Source: a virus | Reading direction: 5' to 3' (one strand) | Virus record (IMG/VR): IMGVR_UViG_3300042516_004178 | Coordinates: 1-24,268 of that record | DNA length: 24,268 nt | Shown here: piece by piece, positions 3,223-24,268 of the stretch | How positions within the stretch are numbered: the stretch's first letter is position 1 | How the letters are laid out: every line of letters starts with the position of its first letter | Made by a program: the position numbers and the translations under genes | The notes under the pieces: generated by a model | What the model was told of the DNA's origin: nothing | Seen by the model: only the letters and a program-made list of their open reading frames with translations | Databases searched by the model: none

Positions 3223-3411
3223 ATGTTCATTTACTATTTTATCATCAGTGGAATTATTATGGGTGTTTGGTATTCATACAACCAATACACAACATCAAGC
3301 ATCAGTATATTAGATATTATATTAAATATGGTTGGTAGTTTACTAATTGGATGGTTAATGTTACCCATCTCTATATTAGCATTATTAGACAGCATAAAAA
3401 TTCGTAAATAA
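3223..3411 (+). CDS. Small two-helix membrane protein (62 aa)
   Basis: Two hydrophobic segments, about residues 2-16 and 28-56, are separated by a polar YNQYTTSS loop. The protein ends in the basic tail KIRK, typical of a small inner-membrane protein with a cytoplasmic C-terminus. It could be a holin, a superinfection-exclusion protein or another accessory membrane peptide; the sequence does not discriminate. The TAA stop overlaps the ATG of the nuclease gene (TAATG at 3409-3413), so the two are translationally coupled. Confidence 0.7.
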   Translation: MFIYYFIISGIIMGVWYSYNQYTTSSISILDIILNMVGSLLIGWLMLPISILALLDSIKIRK

Positions 3412-3899
3412 TGAAACGTTTAACACACGATGAGGCTAAACAATACCGCCAATTAAGTAGTAGTGACATGCGTTATAGTATGCGTCGTGCTATTGCTTAT
3501 ACTCTTACCCCCATCCCTAATGACCCAGGTTGGGAAGAAATCACATATTACGGTGCAGCCTGGATAGACCCAACTAACACTCCACAACATCCACATTATA
3601 TTTACGTTCTCGTTAACCCATCTATTCCAGGTATATGTAAGATTGGCTTTACTACCACGACAGTATACGATAGAGTTAAACAGATCAATTCAGCTACGGG
3701 CGTAATTACGCCTTGGTACGCGGTGTTCTCATATAAGTGCCCAGATGGTCGTTCACTTGAGCAAGATATACATACACATCTTGAAGACATTGGCGTACGT
3801 GTTAATCCAAAGCGCGAGGGATTTCAAATATCATCTGATGATGCGCGTGTTATTATTGAAAATATAGGTAAAAAATACAAATCAAATGAAATCAATTAA
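3411..3899 (+). CDS. T5orf172-type GIY-YIG superfamily nuclease (162 aa)
   Basis: The central domain (residues about 63-140) matches the T5orf172/MUG113 branch of the GIY-YIG superfamily: HYIYVLVN (GIY-like strand), CKIGFT (YIG-like strand), DRVKQINSATG with a conserved Arg, a Glu in SLEQDIHTHL, and the terminal REGFQI. These proteins are putative Mg-dependent DNA endonucleases common in phages. Some are mobile or tied to host-DNA degradation. The N-terminal 60 residues are extra and of unknown role. The gene is coupled to the membrane-protein gene upstream and overlaps the next small gene by 14 bases. Confidence 0.8.
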   Translation: MKRLTHDEAKQYRQLSSSDMRYSMRRAIAYTLTPIPNDPGWEEITYYGAAWIDPTNTPQHPHYIYVLVNPSIPGICKIGFTTTTVYDRVKQINSATGVITPWYAVFSYKCPDGRSLEQDIHTHLEDIGVRVNPKREGFQISSDDARVIIENIGKKYKSNEIN

Positions 3900-18292: not shown

Positions 18293-18955
18293 ATGGCAAT
18301 TTTAAACCCTACAACAATTACTGTAGATGCAATATTAACCACGAAGGGCCGCGAATTATTGGCTCGTAACGATGGTTCATTTCAAATTACTCAATTTGCA
18401 TTAGCTGATGATGAAATTGATTATACTTTGTATAATCCAAACCACCCATCAGGATCTGCATTTTATGGTGAAGCAATTGAAAACACTCCAGTATTAGAAG
18501 CTATTCCAAACGAATCACAAGTAATGCGCTATAAACTAGTAACATTACCTCGTGGTACTTCTAAATTACCAGTAATTAACTTAGGTTACAACAGTATTAC
18601 TTTACGCCAAGGTGCTTCATTAACGATTACTCCACAAACACTTAACTATTTAGGCGCTACAAGTACATTTGAAGCCAATGGTTATACAGCAACAATTGCT
18701 GATTCTCGTTTAGTATCTACCTTCACTGGTACTGGTATTGTTACAACAGAACCTACAGGTAATTTAAACACAACTACAGGTACAGTAATGTCTGTAACTC
18801 AAGTTGGTACTTCATTCACATTAACAGGTACAACAATCAACACATTATTTGGTTCTACATTAACACAATTAACTACTACAATCACTGTGATTGGTAGAGA
18901 TAGTGGTGCTAGAATTACAATTCCTTTGAATATTCAAAAAGTATCAACAATCTAA
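18293..18955 (+). CDS. Tail fibre/virion protein with C-terminal Ig-like domain (220 aa)
   Basis: The N-terminal domain (residues 1-100) has the pattern TTKGRELLARNDGSFQITQF, ALADDEIDYTLYNPNHPSGS and MRYKLVTLPRGTSKLPVI. I associate this pattern with virion proteins of T4-like phages from aquatic samples. Residues about 105-220 are a Thr-rich beta sandwich resembling an Ig-like domain. Codons are cleaner (more CGT and GCA) than in the neighbouring accessory genes, as in a highly expressed protein. It has its own late-type motif, consistent with abundance in the particle. Confidence 0.65.
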   Translation: MAILNPTTITVDAILTTKGRELLARNDGSFQITQFALADDEIDYTLYNPNHPSGSAFYGEAIENTPVLEAIPNESQVMRYKLVTLPRGTSKLPVINLGYNSITLRQGASLTITPQTLNYLGATSTFEANGYTATIADSRLVSTFTGTGIVTTEPTGNLNTTTGTVMSVTQVGTSFTLTGTTINTLFGSTLTQLTTTITVIGRDSGARITIPLNIQKVSTI

Positions 18956-18963
18956 TTTAACAT

Positions 18964-19965
18964 ATGTCATTCGTAAGATACAACCCAGAAGATTCAGTAA
19001 TTAGTTCAGAAACCGTAGTACGCGGTTTGTTTACTGGAGATAGCTATACTTTGAACTCATTTTCAACATCAAGTAATCCTAGTGAATATTATGTTGACGT
19101 ATGGAATGGTGACCCGACTTTGTCTTCATCTGCTGTACAATTTTCCCTTCAATATGGTAACATAAATGGTTCTGGATCTGCATTAATTAATAGTGCTGTT
19201 CCAAACTTTACCCCTTCACGTGTTGTATACGGTGAATATAGAAACTTAGTATTTGGTACTGAAACACAAAACTTTAGTTTTGATAATGGTGCAACAATAG
19301 CAAGTGATATTTTTGTATTAAACTTTGCTCGTGCTCGTTACAAAGAATCATTACTACAAGGCTCATTTAATATGACTTTAAAAAGCGGTAGTAATGCTAT
19401 TCAATTAACTGATGACAGTGGTACTACAAATTTAACTCGTTTTATTGGTGAGAATGAAGTTTACTATATCATTTCAGGAAGTAATGGTAATGCTTATACA
19501 GCAAATGCTTCTGCTTCTTATTATGGAATGATGTTCCCTGATCTTGATATTGTAATATTAAATGCTACAGCATCTACAGTAGTAGATTTAAGAAGTTATT
19601 TTGCTCCTATTAACTATGCAACTTCTTCAGTTCAAAACCAGTTAAAATTATATACTTCAATTGTAAGTGGTTCTGCAAATAGTCCAAGTAGCAGTATGAC
19701 TTTACAATCATCTGAAACTGTTTCTTCACGTTATTTCTTTACTCGTGTAAAGAATAGTGAATTTAACTATACAACAAACCCATCTATTATAGATGCAAAT
19801 GGTAACTTATTATATACTACATTAATTAATAACCCTCAAACATTTATTACCTCTGTAGGTATGTACAATGACAATAATGAGTTATTAGCTGTAGCTAAAT
19901 TAAGTCAACCATTAACAAAAGACTTTACAAAAGAAGCCTTAATTAGAATCAAATTAGACTATTAA
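18964..19965 (+). CDS. Tail fibre/virion protein (333 aa)
   Basis: The whole protein is beta-rich with many Ser/Asn/Gly turns (SFVRYNPEDSVISSETVVRG, FSLQYGNINGSGSALI). The C-terminal 75 residues form a distinct module: TRVKNSEFNYTTNPSI, then FITSVGMYNDNNELLAVAKL and IRIKLDY. This module is repeated as a stand-alone protein at 23656. It starts 8 bases after the preceding gene and ends 3 bases before the next one, so the three are cotranscribed. An adhesin or fibre role is inferred. Confidence 0.65.
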   Translation: MSFVRYNPEDSVISSETVVRGLFTGDSYTLNSFSTSSNPSEYYVDVWNGDPTLSSSAVQFSLQYGNINGSGSALINSAVPNFTPSRVVYGEYRNLVFGTETQNFSFDNGATIASDIFVLNFARARYKESLLQGSFNMTLKSGSNAIQLTDDSGTTNLTRFIGENEVYYIISGSNGNAYTANASASYYGMMFPDLDIVILNATASTVVDLRSYFAPINYATSSVQNQLKLYTSIVSGSANSPSSSMTLQSSETVSSRYFFTRVKNSEFNYTTNPSIIDANGNLLYTTLINNPQTFITSVGMYNDNNELLAVAKLSQPLTKDFTKEALIRIKLDY

Positions 19966-19968
19966 TGC

Positions 19969-21423
19969 ATGTCTTCATTCAAAAAGTTAAGCAGAGCAGA
20001 CGTTACGGTAGTTCCCTATCACGCCAATAAACAGTGGCAGTTAGGGTACTGTCCTTATCCTACTTCATCTGAATACTTAACTATTTATAAAGGTACAAAC
20101 TTTACAGGTAGTTTTACTTTAGAAGAAGATGTTACTGAAGGTGAATATGAGCGTTTAGTCTATGATCAAATCAATCATTTATTTTACCAAGCGTATACTG
20201 AATCGTTAGATACTAGTTCGTTAATGTTTACTATTAACAACTATGAATCTGCTTCTCAACAACGCCCTACTTCTTCATATTTTATTTATAATGATAACGA
20301 TAATCTAATCCAAAACTACCCTACAGGAGTTATGGAAGGTATTCGTGTATTAGCAATTAATCAAGATTTATACGGAAATAAAGTATTACCTAATACTTTT
20401 GTTATATCTTCATCTGCTTATTTTATAGCAGACGATGGATTTGGAAATTTATATAATATAAGTGCCTCTGATGATGGAGGTTATTTTTCTCAAAGTTATA
20501 TAGACCCAGAATATTTTGTTGAAAGAGGTATTACAACTAGAGTTCAAATTGGAAACATATATTATGCTCAAGGATTAGCTATTATTACTAATCAGGATTA
20601 TCAAAACATATTTCCTCTTCCTCCTATCGCTAAAAACGATAGTGGAAATTTTTTAACAACAGATCCTCAAAAAACAATTTCAGCATCGTTAAATGATTAT
20701 GCTAGAAGTGGAACTTTAGATACAGGATCACTTGTACTATCAGGTAGTACCTCAGGTCCAGGCTATTCTTGGGCTACAGGAAGTAATGGTACTATTGTTT
20801 TAACAACAACAATTCCAGGTACTTATACTGTATATTATACTATAGGAGCTAATGTAGCTGGTTCTTGTGCTGCTCAATTAAGAAGTAATAAGGCTAAAGT
20901 AACTGCTTATGTAACTACACCTACTACTACAACAACTACTAGTACAACAACAACCACAACAACAGTTCCACCAACCACAACCACTACTACTAGTACAACC
21001 ACAAGTACTACAACGGCGCCAACAACAACCACTACAACAACCACTAGTACTACAACAAGTACTACAACGCCACCACCAACAACCACAACAACAACTACTA
21101 CTAGTACAACCACTAGTACTACAACACCACCACCTACAACAACAACTACTAGTACAACTACATCTACTACTACACCTCCAGTATACTATTACTATGCAGT
21201 TAGACAAAACCAATGTAATTTACCAGGTGCTTGTACATTCGTAGCTGATAGAGTAGCTAGATCAAGTACTCCTTTATCAACAGTTGATGGTGTTTATTAC
21301 AAAGTAGGTTCATTTACTTACCAAATACAAACTGAAATTGACCCTGTACCACCACCATCGTTTGATGTTAGTTTAGATGGTGCCCCATCAGATGCTAACT
21401 GTATAACCGCTTGTGGTCTTTAG
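19969..21423 (+). CDS. Tail adhesin with mucin-like Thr/Ser/Pro stalk and Cys-containing tip (484 aa)
   Basis: Residues 1-210 are a beta-rich virion domain (VTVVPYHANKQWQLGYCPYP, RVQIGNIYYAQGLAIITN). Residues about 215-314 look like an Ig/cadherin-like module (LPPIAKNDSGNF, GTYTVYYTIGA). Residues 316-404 are an 89-residue low-complexity stalk of Thr runs with regularly spaced Ser and Pro-Pro punctuation. Residues 405-484 are a compact C-terminal tip with four Cys. The stalk is a typical O-glycan acceptor composition, and two glycosyltransferase genes follow directly. The layout suggests virion anchor, spacer stalk and receptor-binding tip. The glycosylation is inference. Confidence 0.7.
   Translation: MSSFKKLSRADVTVVPYHANKQWQLGYCPYPTSSEYLTIYKGTNFTGSFTLEEDVTEGEYERLVYDQINHLFYQAYTESLDTSSLMFTINNYESASQQRPTSSYFIYNDNDNLIQNYPTGVMEGIRVLAINQDLYGNKVLPNTFVISSSAYFIADDGFGNLYNISASDDGGYFSQSYIDPEYFVERGITTRVQIGNIYYAQGLAIITNQDYQNIFPLPPIAKNDSGNFLTTDPQKTISASLNDYARSGTLDTGSLVLSGSTSGPGYSWATGSNGTIVLTTTIPGTYTVYYTIGANVAGSCAAQLRSNKAKVTAYVTTPTTTTTTSTTTTTTTVPPTTTTTTSTTTSTTTAPTTTTTTTTSTTTSTTTPPPTTTTTTTTSTTTSTTTPPPTTTTTSTTTSTTTPPVYYYYAVRQNQCNLPGACTFVADRVARSSTPLSTVDGVYYKVGSFTYQIQTEIDPVPPPSFDVSLDGAPSDANCITACGL
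20914..21180 (+). repeat. ACN-codon low-complexity repeat encoding Thr/Ser/Pro stalk
   Basis: About 267 bases of ACA/ACT/ACC/ACG codons with AGT/TCT Ser and CCN Pro interruptions. At protein level there are five units of 20, 16, 19, 19 and 15 residues. Each ends in VPP, AP, PPP, PPP or PP, and the third and fourth are identical. Synonymous codons vary, but short blocks such as ACTACTAGTACAACC recur, so recombination or slippage could change the length. Confidence 0.85.
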
Positions 21424-21465
21424 TGAATAGTTTGGAATTATAAATTAGGATAATTATATTAGGTT

Positions 21466-22407
21466 ATGAAAAATTTACGTTATATTTGCGTTCAACCAAG
21501 GCTAATTTATTATGCTTGGCAGGTTGAAGTTATGATCAATAACTTTATTAAAAATAGAATCAGTGGTAATAATATTGATATTTTAGTTGCTTGGAACCCC
21601 AATGATGGCACTAGTACTCCTGAAGTAATAGATGCTTGGGATAAATTAGTTAACAAATATAATTACGTTAGATTTTTCTTCTATCAAGATACTAGAGAGG
21701 ATATGTCCTATATTCCTTCTATTTATTTTAATATTTTAAAACAACATATAGCCGCCCACCCTGAACTATCTACTCAACCTTTATTTTGTCATGACTCAGA
21801 CATAATCTTTACTAAACCAGTAGATTTTAGTTCAATGTTAAATGATGATATTTGGTATCTAAGTGATACGGTTGGATATATAGGTACACAATATGTTTTA
21901 ACTAAAGGTGAAGATATATATAAAGGTATGTGTGATGTAATTGGAATTGATCCACTAATACCTAAATTATTAAACTCAAATTCAGGAGGAGCTCAACATA
22001 TTATTAAAGGTTCTACTTATGAATATTGGGATAAAGTAGAAAAAGATTCAATTAAATTATATAGATGGTTTTGTGAACAAGAACCACTATGGAAAGGTGA
22101 AGGATATCCAATCCAAAAATGGACTGCAGGGATGTGGTCATTATTATGGAATGCCTGGTTATTCGGTAATGAAACAAAAGTAGATAAGCGTTTAGATTTT
22201 TGCTGGGCAACTGATCACATTAATAGATGGGATGATGTATCAATATTTCACAATGCTGGAGTAACAGAGCACGGTAAATTATTTATGAAAGGAAATTATA
22301 CTCAGTCTTATCCTTATGGAATTGAAAATACATTTGATCCTAATTTTTGCTCATTTAATTATGTAAACGAAATAATAGAAACAACTCAAAAATCATGTCT
22401 AGTATAA
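21466..22407 (+). CDS. Putative glycosyltransferase, GT-A-like with DxD motif (313 aa)
   Basis: The N-terminal half has the order of a GT-A fold: YICVQPRLIYYAWQVEVMIN, then IDILVAWNPND, VRFFFYQDTR, and PLFCHDSDIIFTKPVDF, where Asp110-Ser-Asp112 is a DxD-type metal/nucleotide-sugar motif. Later come NSNSGGAQHIIKGSTYEYWD (residues about 171-189), KWTAGMWSLLWNAWLFG and FHNAGV. The acceptor-side layout reminds me of peptidyl hydroxyproline or serine glycosyltransferases (HPAT/SerGT-like), but I cannot confirm that. It lies 42 bases after the Thr-rich stalk gene and overlaps the next glycosyltransferase by 13 bases. Confidence 0.65.
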   Translation: MKNLRYICVQPRLIYYAWQVEVMINNFIKNRISGNNIDILVAWNPNDGTSTPEVIDAWDKLVNKYNYVRFFFYQDTREDMSYIPSIYFNILKQHIAAHPELSTQPLFCHDSDIIFTKPVDFSSMLNDDIWYLSDTVGYIGTQYVLTKGEDIYKGMCDVIGIDPLIPKLLNSNSGGAQHIIKGSTYEYWDKVEKDSIKLYRWFCEQEPLWKGEGYPIQKWTAGMWSLLWNAWLFGNETKVDKRLDFCWATDHINRWDDVSIFHNAGVTEHGKLFMKGNYTQSYPYGIENTFDPNFCSFNYVNEIIETTQKSCLV

Positions 22408-23144
22408 ATCTCCCTAAAATATCCTGTATATGTCCTACATTTTCTAGGGCACATCTATTAGAAGAAGCTCTTGAATCTTTTTTAAAACAAGATTATCAAG
22501 GAGAAAAAGAATTAATAATATACAATGATTTTTCTCAACAAGAATTCATATTTGAACACCCAGAAGTAAAAGTAATTAATTCTTTAGAACGATCTCCTAA
22601 TCTTGGACATAAATGGAATGTAACATATAGCTATGCTACTGGGGAATATCTATTAACTTGGGGAGATGATGATGTTTATCTACCAGGTAGAATAAGTAGA
22701 ATGGTTAATAATTTAAATCAATCTGACTTTTTATATGAAGGTCCGTATTATATACTTTATGGAGATGTTCTTTACAAAAAAGCAGATCAAACTCAAGGAG
22801 CAAATATAGTTTCAAGAAAATTATTTGATGCAGTAGGAGGAATACCAGAAAAAAATACAGGAGAAGATGCTGCTTTTAATGATAGAATAGCAAAACATTT
22901 ATGTAAACCTCTTGATGCCTGTAAAGATGAACCACAGTTTGTATATAGGTGGTCATCACCAAGAAACCATATATCTCAGTTTGGAGAAGATAAAGAAGGT
23001 GAAATTACTAGTTATCAAAGAATGTTAGAAGCAGCAAATATATACATTGAATCTGGTAAAGAGCCTAAAGGTATTTATCATTTAAATCCTCATTGGAAAC
23101 TAAATTGGATAGAAGAGGTAAAAACTGCTATTATAGAACCCTAA
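22395..23144 (+). CDS. Glycosyltransferase family 2-like protein (249 aa)
   Basis: This is a GT2-type enzyme: ISCICPTFSRAHLLEEALES (residues 9-28) opens the nucleotide-binding half, ELIIYNDFS follows, and LLTWGDDDVYLPGRIS (residues 86-101) holds the Asp91-93 DxD metal motif. NTGEDAAFNDRI (residues 154-165) is the usual 'ED' catalytic-side segment. It transfers a sugar from a nucleotide sugar to an unknown acceptor in the cytoplasm. The start overlaps the previous glycosyltransferase by 13 bases, indicating coupled synthesis. AGA/ATA codons are frequent. Confidence 0.85.
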   Translation: MSSINLPKISCICPTFSRAHLLEEALESFLKQDYQGEKELIIYNDFSQQEFIFEHPEVKVINSLERSPNLGHKWNVTYSYATGEYLLTWGDDDVYLPGRISRMVNNLNQSDFLYEGPYYILYGDVLYKKADQTQGANIVSRKLFDAVGGIPEKNTGEDAAFNDRIAKHLCKPLDACKDEPQFVYRWSSPRNHISQFGEDKEGEITSYQRMLEAANIYIESGKEPKGIYHLNPHWKLNWIEEVKTAIIEP

Positions 23145-23152
23145 CTAGAAAC

Positions 23153-23635
23153 ATGACTTATATTCATCCTACAGCTTTAATTGAATCCAATGTGATAATT
23201 GAGGATGATGTTTATATTGGACCTTATTGTATAATCGGATTTCCACCTGAATGGAAAAAAAGAGAAGATGAAGGAAAGGGTGTATTAATTAAAAAAGGAA
23301 CTAGATTAACTGGATTTGTAACAATAGATGCGGGTGCAGAGAGAAGAACTGAGGTTGGTGAAAATTGTTATATAATGAAATACGGTTATATTGCTCATGA
23401 TTGTATACTAGAAAATAATGTAACAATGAGTGCTGGCTCAAAACTAGCAGGTTTTTGCTATGTTTATGAAAATGTAAACCTAGGAATGGGAGTAGCCATT
23501 CATCAAAAATCAACAATACCTTCAGGGGTAATGATAGGAATGAATGGAGTAGTAACTAAACAAAGTAAATTATTACCTAATCAAAAATATGCAGGTATAC
23601 CTGTTAAACATATAGGGAGTAATGAAGGACATTAA
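23153..23635 (+). CDS. Left-handed beta-helix (hexapeptide) acyltransferase, LpxA-like (160 aa)
   Basis: The protein starts with the typical LpxA/acetyltransferase opening, MTYIHPTALIESNVIIEDDV, then YIGPYCIIG. It continues with hexapeptide-repeat turns (VGENCYIMKYGYIAHDCI, NNVTMSAGSKLAG, NVNLGMGVAI, IGMNGVVTK). His82 in AHDC matches the conserved catalytic-type His of the family. It probably acylates a sugar or nucleotide sugar. I chose the ATG at 23153, 8 bases after the previous stop; the longer frame from 23093 overlaps the glycosyltransferase. It belongs with the two glycosyltransferases as a glycan-making or modifying cassette. Confidence 0.85.
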   Translation: MTYIHPTALIESNVIIEDDVYIGPYCIIGFPPEWKKREDEGKGVLIKKGTRLTGFVTIDAGAERRTEVGENCYIMKYGYIAHDCILENNVTMSAGSKLAGFCYVYENVNLGMGVAIHQKSTIPSGVMIGMNGVVTKQSKLLPNQKYAGIPVKHIGSNEGH

Positions 23636-23643
23636 AATCATCA

Positions 23644-23651
23644 ATATTTAT
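23644..23651 (+). promoter_or_regulatory. Possible class B motif B7 with very short leader
   Basis: ATATTTAT lies 4 bases before the ATG at 23656, the same unusual spacing as at 9001. It would give a leaderless transcript if real. Confidence 0.3.
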
Positions 23652-23655
23652 ACTC

Positions 23656-23967
23656 ATGTCAGCAATAGTATATACCGGATCATTCTCAGTAGCGTTTAAA
23701 AACGATTACACCATCTACGAAAACGAAGTTCGTTGTTTGGTAAAGGAGAGTGACTATAACTCATCCTACAACCCAACATTAGTATCAGGTAGCTACATTG
23801 ATGGATTTTTAAAAGGATTCGCTACTAGCGAAAGTTTCTATACTTATGCTACACAAATTGGTTTGTATGATGATGCTAATAATTTATTAGCTGTAGCTAA
23901 GTTAGGTAAACCAATTATGATGTCACCTGACACAGACATGACGTTTGTAGTCAAGTATGATATATAA
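23656..23967 (+). CDS. Short tail-protein paralogue (103 aa)
   Basis: The protein is beta-rich. Its C-terminal part parallels the end of the 333-residue protein encoded at 18964: CLVKESDYNSSYNPTLV, then YATQIGLYDDANNLLAVAKL and a final VVKYDI. LLAVAKL is identical and the spacing of aromatic and charged residues is similar. It probably forms the same small fold on the virion, or is the remnant of a larger fibre gene separated by insertion of the glycan cassette. Codons (CGT, GCG, TAC) resemble those of structural genes rather than of the cassette just upstream. Confidence 0.7.
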   Translation: MSAIVYTGSFSVAFKNDYTIYENEVRCLVKESDYNSSYNPTLVSGSYIDGFLKGFATSESFYTYATQIGLYDDANNLLAVAKLGKPIMMSPDTDMTFVVKYDI

Positions 23968-23982
23968 AATAAAATTTTAGTT

Positions 23983-24268
23983 ATGTTTCAAACATCTGAT
24001 CCTCTTTATGTTGAGGATTTAATTAATGACCCTGATTTCAATATTGATGACTATTGTGGTTATGTTTATATGACATGTCATAACTCAACAGGCCGCAGGT
24101 ACATTGGTAAAAAAGTATTTCATCATACCACAACTAAAAAATTAGGCAAGAAAGAACTAACTGAAATTCCAGTTACCAGAGGTAAACGCCCAACTAAAAA
24201 GACAGTAGTTAAGGAAAGTGATTGGAAAACATATTATGGTTCCAATACTGAGGTAAAATCATTACCTA
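23983..24268 (+). CDS. GIY-YIG-like endonuclease, 3' truncated by window
   Basis: The first 95 residues are visible. GYVYMTCHNSTGRRYIGKK (residues 26-44) carries the GIY-like (GYVY) and YIG-like (RYIGKK) strands. After a Lys/Thr-rich insertion comes VVKESDWKTYYGSN (residues 76-88), a combination found in phage-encoded GIY-YIG family proteins. These are candidate DNA endonucleases, some of them mobile (homing) in T4-type phages. It follows 15 bases after the tail-protein paralogue. It is open to the end of the window, so its full length is unknown. Confidence 0.7.
   Translation, partial: MFQTSDPLYVEDLINDPDFNIDDYCGYVYMTCHNSTGRRYIGKKVFHHTTTKKLGKKELTEIPVTRGKRPTKKTVVKESDWKTYYGSNTEVKSLP

Follow-up and report, generated by a model that had tools for sequence, protein, structure and literature searches.

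A 2024 paper states that bacteriophages "are not typically glycosylated" (PMC11256854), and in the searchable open-licence literature virion glycosylation has been demonstrated for mycobacteriophages only. In Che8, Corndog and Myrna, according to papers citing Freeman et al. 2023 (PMC12619734, PMC12363180, PMC11652166), phage-encoded enzymes O-glycosylate the C-termini of capsid and tail-tube proteins. Here we describe a 24,268-bp virus record (IMG/VR record IMGVR_UViG_3300042516_004178, analysed over its whole length and referred to as the window) in which a fibre-like protein with a threonine-rich stalk, ADH, is followed directly by two glycosyltransferases, GT1 and GT2, and a hexapeptide acyltransferase, HEX. 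We propose, with a probability of roughly 85%, that these genes make up a modular virion O-glycosylation cassette in which GT1 glycosylates the poly-Thr stalk while GT2 and HEX elaborate the glycan.

Under this proposal, GT1 would bind a nucleotide sugar via its metal-binding DxD motif and transfer the sugar to threonines of the poly-Thr stalk on the fibre-like protein encoded just upstream, after which GT2 would extend the glycan and HEX would acylate it. The initial annotation suggested stiffening, shielding or mimicry as benefits to the phage; these, like the identity of the sugar, are inferences rather than observations. GT1 would recognise poly-Thr as such, a portable tag that marks the acceptor, and this would account for the presence of one enzyme family beside poly-Thr tags on unrelated virion proteins. 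Such tags are carried by fibres in Bacteroidota-type phages; in Bacillota phages, they are found on the major capsid, decoration and tail-tube proteins. The connection of a phage glycosyltransferase with virion acceptor proteins, one mark of virion O-glycosylation systems, is here one of genetic linkage.

The Bacillota phages that encode GT1 resemble the mycobacteriophages in that glycosyltransferases are phage-encoded and in that the Bacillota tags sit at the capsid and tail-tube C-termini, exactly where glycans are reported in mycobacteriophages; in the window, by contrast, the presumed acceptor is an internal fibre stalk. A profile search (hmmsearch) detected no relation between Che8 gp108-110 and GT1 (E-values of at least 0.25), and kinship of GT1 with the Che8 glycosyltransferases was rejected on this basis; poly-Thr tags are also absent from the C-terminal ends of the capsid and tail-tube proteins of Che8. 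Virion O-glycosylation is thus known in principle. What appears to be new, in the literature searchable here, is the family of the enzyme, the use of poly-Thr as acceptor, the exchange of cassettes and the taxonomic breadth; searches of open-licence papers for poly-threonine tags or glycosylated major tail proteins yielded nothing relevant.

GT1 and its linkage to poly-threonine tracts

GT1 (21466-22407; this and the other features described here between 18293 and 23967 lie on the + strand) is a member of phrog_4417, a family annotated as of unknown function (profile E-value 1e-65, residues 5-305 of 313). Its structure model, with a mean predicted local distance difference test score (pLDDT) of 96, aligns over the full length with GT8-type GT-A enzymes, the best match being glycogenin (Z 15.6, 220 aligned residues, root-mean-square deviation 3.2), with Skp1 alpha-galactosyltransferase (Z 14.8), UGGT (14.8), LgtC (14.7) and LARGE1 (13.9) as further matches. 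GT1 shares the full-length fold (Z about 14-15.6) and the DxD motif with glycogenin, Skp1 alpha-galactosyltransferase, LgtC and LARGE1 but differs from them in sequence (about 8-12% identity); its likeness to CAZy GT8 is at the fold level only, searches of Pfam and NCBIfam and a sequence search of the PDB having given no match. Both aspartates of the HDSD motif, D110 and D112, are conserved without exception across 56 sequences with identities of 30-89%. On the strength of the model, GT1 is predicted with high confidence to be a glycosyltransferase with a GT-A/GT8-like fold and a DxD motif. The GT1 tree divides into two deep clades, Bacillota phages versus Bacteroidota-type phages (support of 100 in the Shimodaira-Hasegawa-like approximate likelihood ratio test), and poly-Thr goes with both.

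A scan of viral contigs gave 163 relatives of GT1, from which 80 loci were kept; with genome contigs and isolated phages added and dereplication at 90% identity, the set comprised 93 loci, 90 of them scorable. In all linkage counts a poly-Thr run was defined as a run of at least six T/S residues with at least five T; earlier scoring over stretches of 40 or 9 aa had missed short T6 tags (L300, L302, L304, L330) and repeats (L296, L297). Such a run is present in the gene directly upstream of GT1 in 74 of the 90 scorable loci and within 6 kb of GT1 in 82 (including L288, scored from annotation), and of the eight loci scored as negative, L022 and L074 carry poly-Thr in frame at another place in their records. 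When the test was applied to other genes, GT1-negative loci of the same lineage gave 1/209, genome loci 1/62 and the GT1-bearing viral loci themselves 15/195. The linkage of GT1 with poly-Thr is far above chance, and the comparison put forward in the initial annotation, whether such cassettes are equally common without a Thr/Ser-rich stalk, did not refute the pairing. The pairing spans phages of Lactobacillus, Enterococcus, Staphylococcus, Lactococcus, many Bacillaceae and Chryseobacterium as well as numerous environmental phages, and several of these are isolates.

In Bacillota isolates and prophages, the protein that terminates in a short poly-Thr tag is the major capsid, the decoration or the tail-tube protein, as in the tail tubes of phiFL1A (...TTTTTSTTTTTTSSTTTTTTTQASSK) and phage 1706 (...VTTTTTTTTTTHHD) and the capsid of iLp84 (...VPTTTTTTTSK); all five further isolates examined have tags. 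Among the genome loci, the last tag lies at most 12 residues from the C-terminus in 68 of 72 cases. Of 27 ACN6 (Thr6) tracts in five whole bacterial genomes, 24 are located within about 2.2 kb of GT1, which means that host proteins are essentially untagged. Natural experiments are provided by tail-tube homologues that were collected from 299 genomes of one order (Bacillaceae-type) without reference to GT1. In the first tail-tube family (at least about 44% identity), a Thr/Ser tag is present in 4/4 members with an adjoining GT1 versus 0/11 without it, and once GT1-anchored prophages are included, the presence of GT1 and that of the tag agree in 30/30 cases with seven changes on the tree. The second family gave 3/3 versus 0/11 in the direct sample and a concordance of 18/18 with three changes on the tree. 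Likewise, the same capsid core ends in ...PEGVVEATISGETTTTTKPTTTTT with GT1 and in ...PEGVVEATIEADKEVPGAV without it. Tag and GT1 are gained and lost together.

The linkage, together with this joint gain and loss on tail-tube homologues, supports the proposal of the initial annotation that the phage glycosylates its own fibre. The main alternative offered there fares worse: if the enzymes modified host surface glycans, in serotype conversion or in exclusion of rival phages, the poly-Thr stalk would be incidental. Phage glycosyltransferases are known to alter host serotype (PMC12619734) and GT2 and HEX are similar to surface-polysaccharide enzymes, but a role at the host surface predicts neither poly-Thr tags that come and go with GT1 on homologous tail-tube proteins nor the position of nearly all whole-genome Thr6 tracts beside GT1, nor would GT1 then be expected just behind virion genes within the late structural module; we consider this explanation very unlikely.

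The recurrence of the GT1 system in phages of very different bacteria suggests that sugar-coated particles are far more common than has been recognised. The proposed role of GT1 supplies a likely function for phrog_4417 and a sequence signature from which glycosylated virions could be predicted, and the question of glycosylation is directly testable in existing phages, among them the cultured carriers of GT1 Lactococcus phages 1706 and P1046, with tail tubes ending in VTTTTTTTTTTHHD, Lactobacillus phage iLp84 and Chryseobacterium phage MA9V-3. If the proposal is true, protein engineering would gain a useful tool, a compact enzyme potentially able to modify plain poly-Thr tags.

Several variants of the GT1 locus were observed. 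In one locus (L032, 1-9960), a single GT1 is preceded by a row of seven fibre-like genes, all of them with Thr/Ser runs. Eight loci (L041, L044, L048, L050, L055, L056, L057, L062) have long GT1 open reading frames (660-739 aa) with an extra C-terminal region, which in L056 is a radical S-adenosylmethionine (SAM)/SPASM domain; these regions possibly act in glycan or peptide tailoring. In L051, L053, L054 and L077, GT1 is fused to SAM-dependent methyltransferase-like domains, which suggests O-methylation of the sugar. In Chitinophaga silvisoli (L295, 5919-13676), a GT1 domain and a Glyco_transf_7C domain are fused, and the surrounding cluster also encodes a radical SAM protein, a C39-peptidase ABC transporter and a protein with weak likeness to LanC; judging by these neighbours, this GT1 may act in a glycosylated pathway of the type that makes ribosomally synthesized and post-translationally modified peptides. 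Among the proteins encoded near GT1, on its downstream side, in viral loci, a few have matches in the muzzle and ring proteins of crAssvirus, which suggests that crAss-like phages carry GT1 as well.

A cassette inserted into an ancestral fibre gene

The stalk protein ADH (19969-21423, 484 aa) begins with an N-terminal anchor domain (residues 1-216, 19969-20616) that is conserved in GT1-positive and GT1-negative relatives; the N-terminal part of ADH was modelled with a pLDDT of only 71 and has no significant PDB match (best E-value 4.5e-3), so we assign it no fold. The beta-rich domain that follows (residues 217-316, 20617-20916) marks the start of the inserted block and is absent from fused relatives such as L005; its pLDDT is mostly 77-95, and a PDB search gave no significant match. 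The stalk itself (residues 317-404, 20917-21180), by composition the proposed O-glycan acceptor, contains 65 T, 12 P, 9 S, 1 V and 1 A. It uses all four Thr codons (ACA 33, ACT 22, ACC 8, ACG 2), which argues for selection on the protein rather than a simple DNA repeat. A Cys-containing C-terminal domain of 80 aa (21181-21420) has one further occurrence, in L097. The initial annotation had described ADH as an adhesin with 89 consecutive Thr/Ser/Pro-rich residues; the run is real and counts 88 residues, and the term adhesin finds no backing, as ADH has no match in Pfam or PHROG. Judged by its position and relatives, ADH belongs to the tail-fibre/spike module. Like the proline/threonine/serine-rich domains of mucins, which the stalk matches in composition, it is a Thr/Ser/Pro-rich tract proposed to accept dense O-glycans; unlike them, it consists of nearly pure Thr runs and has its putative enzyme encoded next door, and homology is not implied.

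For sampling of the lineage, a conserved gene of the flanking virion module (18293-18955, 68% identical to gp107 of Flavobacterium phage immuto) served as a neutral, GT1-independent anchor, and 54 loci had enough downstream DNA. GT1 was present in 5/5 loci with a poly-T/S stalk versus 0/49 others (Fisher p 3e-7). The ADH N-terminal domain and a domain encoded downstream of the enzymes in the window (23656-23967) are often fused in GT1-negative relatives: they form a single gene in 24 glycosyltransferase-free loci and in immuto gp105. In the window and in other GT1 loci of the same lineage the gene is split, with the stalk, GT1 and variable further enzymes in between, and the displaced C-terminal domain is encoded 1.0-3.6 kb past the end of the stalk gene. 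Since stalk and enzymes sit between the halves of an ancestral gene, they arrive as a unit: by this comparison of gene arrangements, in which some contigs are represented twice, they are one block (about 20617-23655) inserted into an ancestral fibre gene. In one exception, L052, the fused gene is kept and GT1 is located elsewhere.

Behind GT1, and overlapping it by 13 nucleotides, lies GT2 (22395-23144), a match to Pfam Glycos_transf_2 (PF00535; E-value 3.6e-14, 53.5 bits versus a gathering score of 23.3) and the proposed glycan extender. The overlapping pair of glycosyltransferase genes in the initial annotation is borne out, for GT1 by the GT-A fold of its model and for GT2 by the Pfam family. 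HEX (23153-23635), the proposed glycan acyl-capping enzyme, most likely starts at ATG 23153, in a frame that opens with TTG at 23093. It had been described as an LpxA-like acyltransferase, of which the hexapeptide acyltransferase part stands (Pfam Hexapep); LpxA itself was rejected, the score against the NCBIfam LpxA equivalog being 91.9 bits versus a cut-off of 231, so that HEX is regarded as a generic hexapeptide acyltransferase. In the sister cassettes of L008, L011, L012, L015 and L018, GT2 is 91% and HEX 92% identical, and in other loci the slots downstream of GT1 are filled by other glycosyltransferases and methyltransferases. This arrangement of genes fits a conserved priming enzyme, GT1, followed by variable glycan tailoring.

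A second stalk class and the remaining alternatives

At the same insertion site, other loci of the lineage have stalks with a T-x-T-P alternating pattern. PF11397, a GT60-type family named after the Skp1 GlcNAc-transferase, is represented in 9 of 28 loci with these T/P-type stalks (L100, 10513-13516; L108, 11688-14788; also L110, L112, L115, L119, L139, L142 and L150), and directly downstream of the stalk in those examined. None of the 28 contains GT1, and no PF11397 member was found in the poly-T/S loci of the anchor sample. The GT60-type enzyme is like GT1 in lying directly behind a stalk at this site and differs from it in family and in the stalk sequence that it accompanies (TP repeats); a second stalk-enzyme pair is suggested. 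Two poly-Thr loci of other lineages (L171, L234) carry a distant PF11397 member, and these exceptions make the correspondence of stalk and enzyme a tendency rather than a rule. A further set (L004, L090, L116, L123, L124) has PTTAPTTSP-type stalks, in some loci as several genes in a row, with neither GT1 nor a GT60-like enzyme found nearby.

These data bear on the possibility that poly-Thr tracts serve in bare form, as flexible linkers or as adhesive tails, and that GT1 hitchhikes at insertion hot spots of fibre genes. Stalks and enzymes in the window lineage do use a common insertion site, and many poly-Thr genes in the DNA examined have no GT1; however, the Bacillota tags end the products of several separate genes, for capsid, decoration and tail-tube proteins, which are dispersed over kilobases, and the joint gain of these tags is not explained by a single hitchhiking event. 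The near-terminal position of the tags and the tendency of another stalk chemistry to accompany another glycosyltransferase at the same site argue in the same direction, and we hold hitchhiking to be highly improbable. Glycosylation of phage DNA is a well-known activity of phage glycosyltransferases (PMC12619734), but action of GT1 on DNA bases, in the manner of the T4 glucosyltransferases, is hardly credible, since GT1 is found among virion genes, not nucleotide genes, and varies with protein tags, and its closest folds are protein or glycan glycosyltransferases.

Several points weigh against virion O-glycosylation by GT1 as we propose it. Well-supported branches yield few phylogenetically independent pairs (4, 2 and 2), so that the sign tests do not reach significance by themselves; the co-variation draws its strength from consistency across datasets. 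No poly-Thr tract is known for six GT1 loci, namely four viral fragments (L057, L038, L027, L045), L298 and the non-phage cluster L295. Conversely, GT1 is missing near many poly-Thr phage genes: only 13 of 120 loci with the pattern have one, the loci being short, which rules out that every such gene has GT1 close by, and the neighbours of the remaining loci include scattered glycosyltransferases only. Finally, the roles of GT2 and HEX in glycan elaboration are deduced from gene order and family.

Apparent capsid recoding and flanking genes

In three phages with GT1, an untagged capsid gene (Pfam Phage_capsid) is followed, after its stop codon, by a poly-Thr tail that lacks a start codon. The tail is in the -1 frame, with CAAAGTAAC at the capsid stop, in vipetofem (L293, 4662-4817) and, with the same sequence, in a Listeria prophage (L305, 3029-3214); in bIL285 (L291, 4947-4982) it is in frame after TAA and ends in RHD like the tail-tube tag. 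These tails are probably recruited by programmed frameshift or readthrough, giving a tagged minor form of the capsid protein. The observations can be joined into an acceptor-tag code, in which poly-Thr tags would be read by phrog_4417 and TP stalks by the GT60-like family, cassettes of stalk, enzyme and tailoring genes would be swapped into an ancestral fibre gene, and some phages would tag part of their capsids via programmed frameshift or readthrough; we see the case for this broader scheme as evenly balanced.

The window also encodes contractile-tail baseplate wedge proteins and an endolysin. One wedge protein is 43% identical to its immuto counterpart, and the gene order around the cassette is the same as in immuto, where the module runs on into annotated tail fibre and tail spike genes; on these grounds, the host of this contractile-tailed phage is probably a member of the Bacteroidota. 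The conserved flanking gene between the anchor gene and ADH (18964-19965) is 44% identical to immuto gp106, and its C-terminal domain is related to the displaced domain at 23656-23967. For the window as a whole, no near-identical match was found among phage records. Probable endonuclease-type genes are located at 3411-3899 and at 23983-24268; the latter flanks the cassette and matches a homing endonuclease PHROG as well as a PHROG labelled "NAD synthetase" (phrog_447). A second copy of ADH on the opposite strand in L006 (9546-11938) is probably a palindromic assembly artefact. Near the start of the window, positions 443-691 encode a small basic protein with repeated KRGRP motifs.

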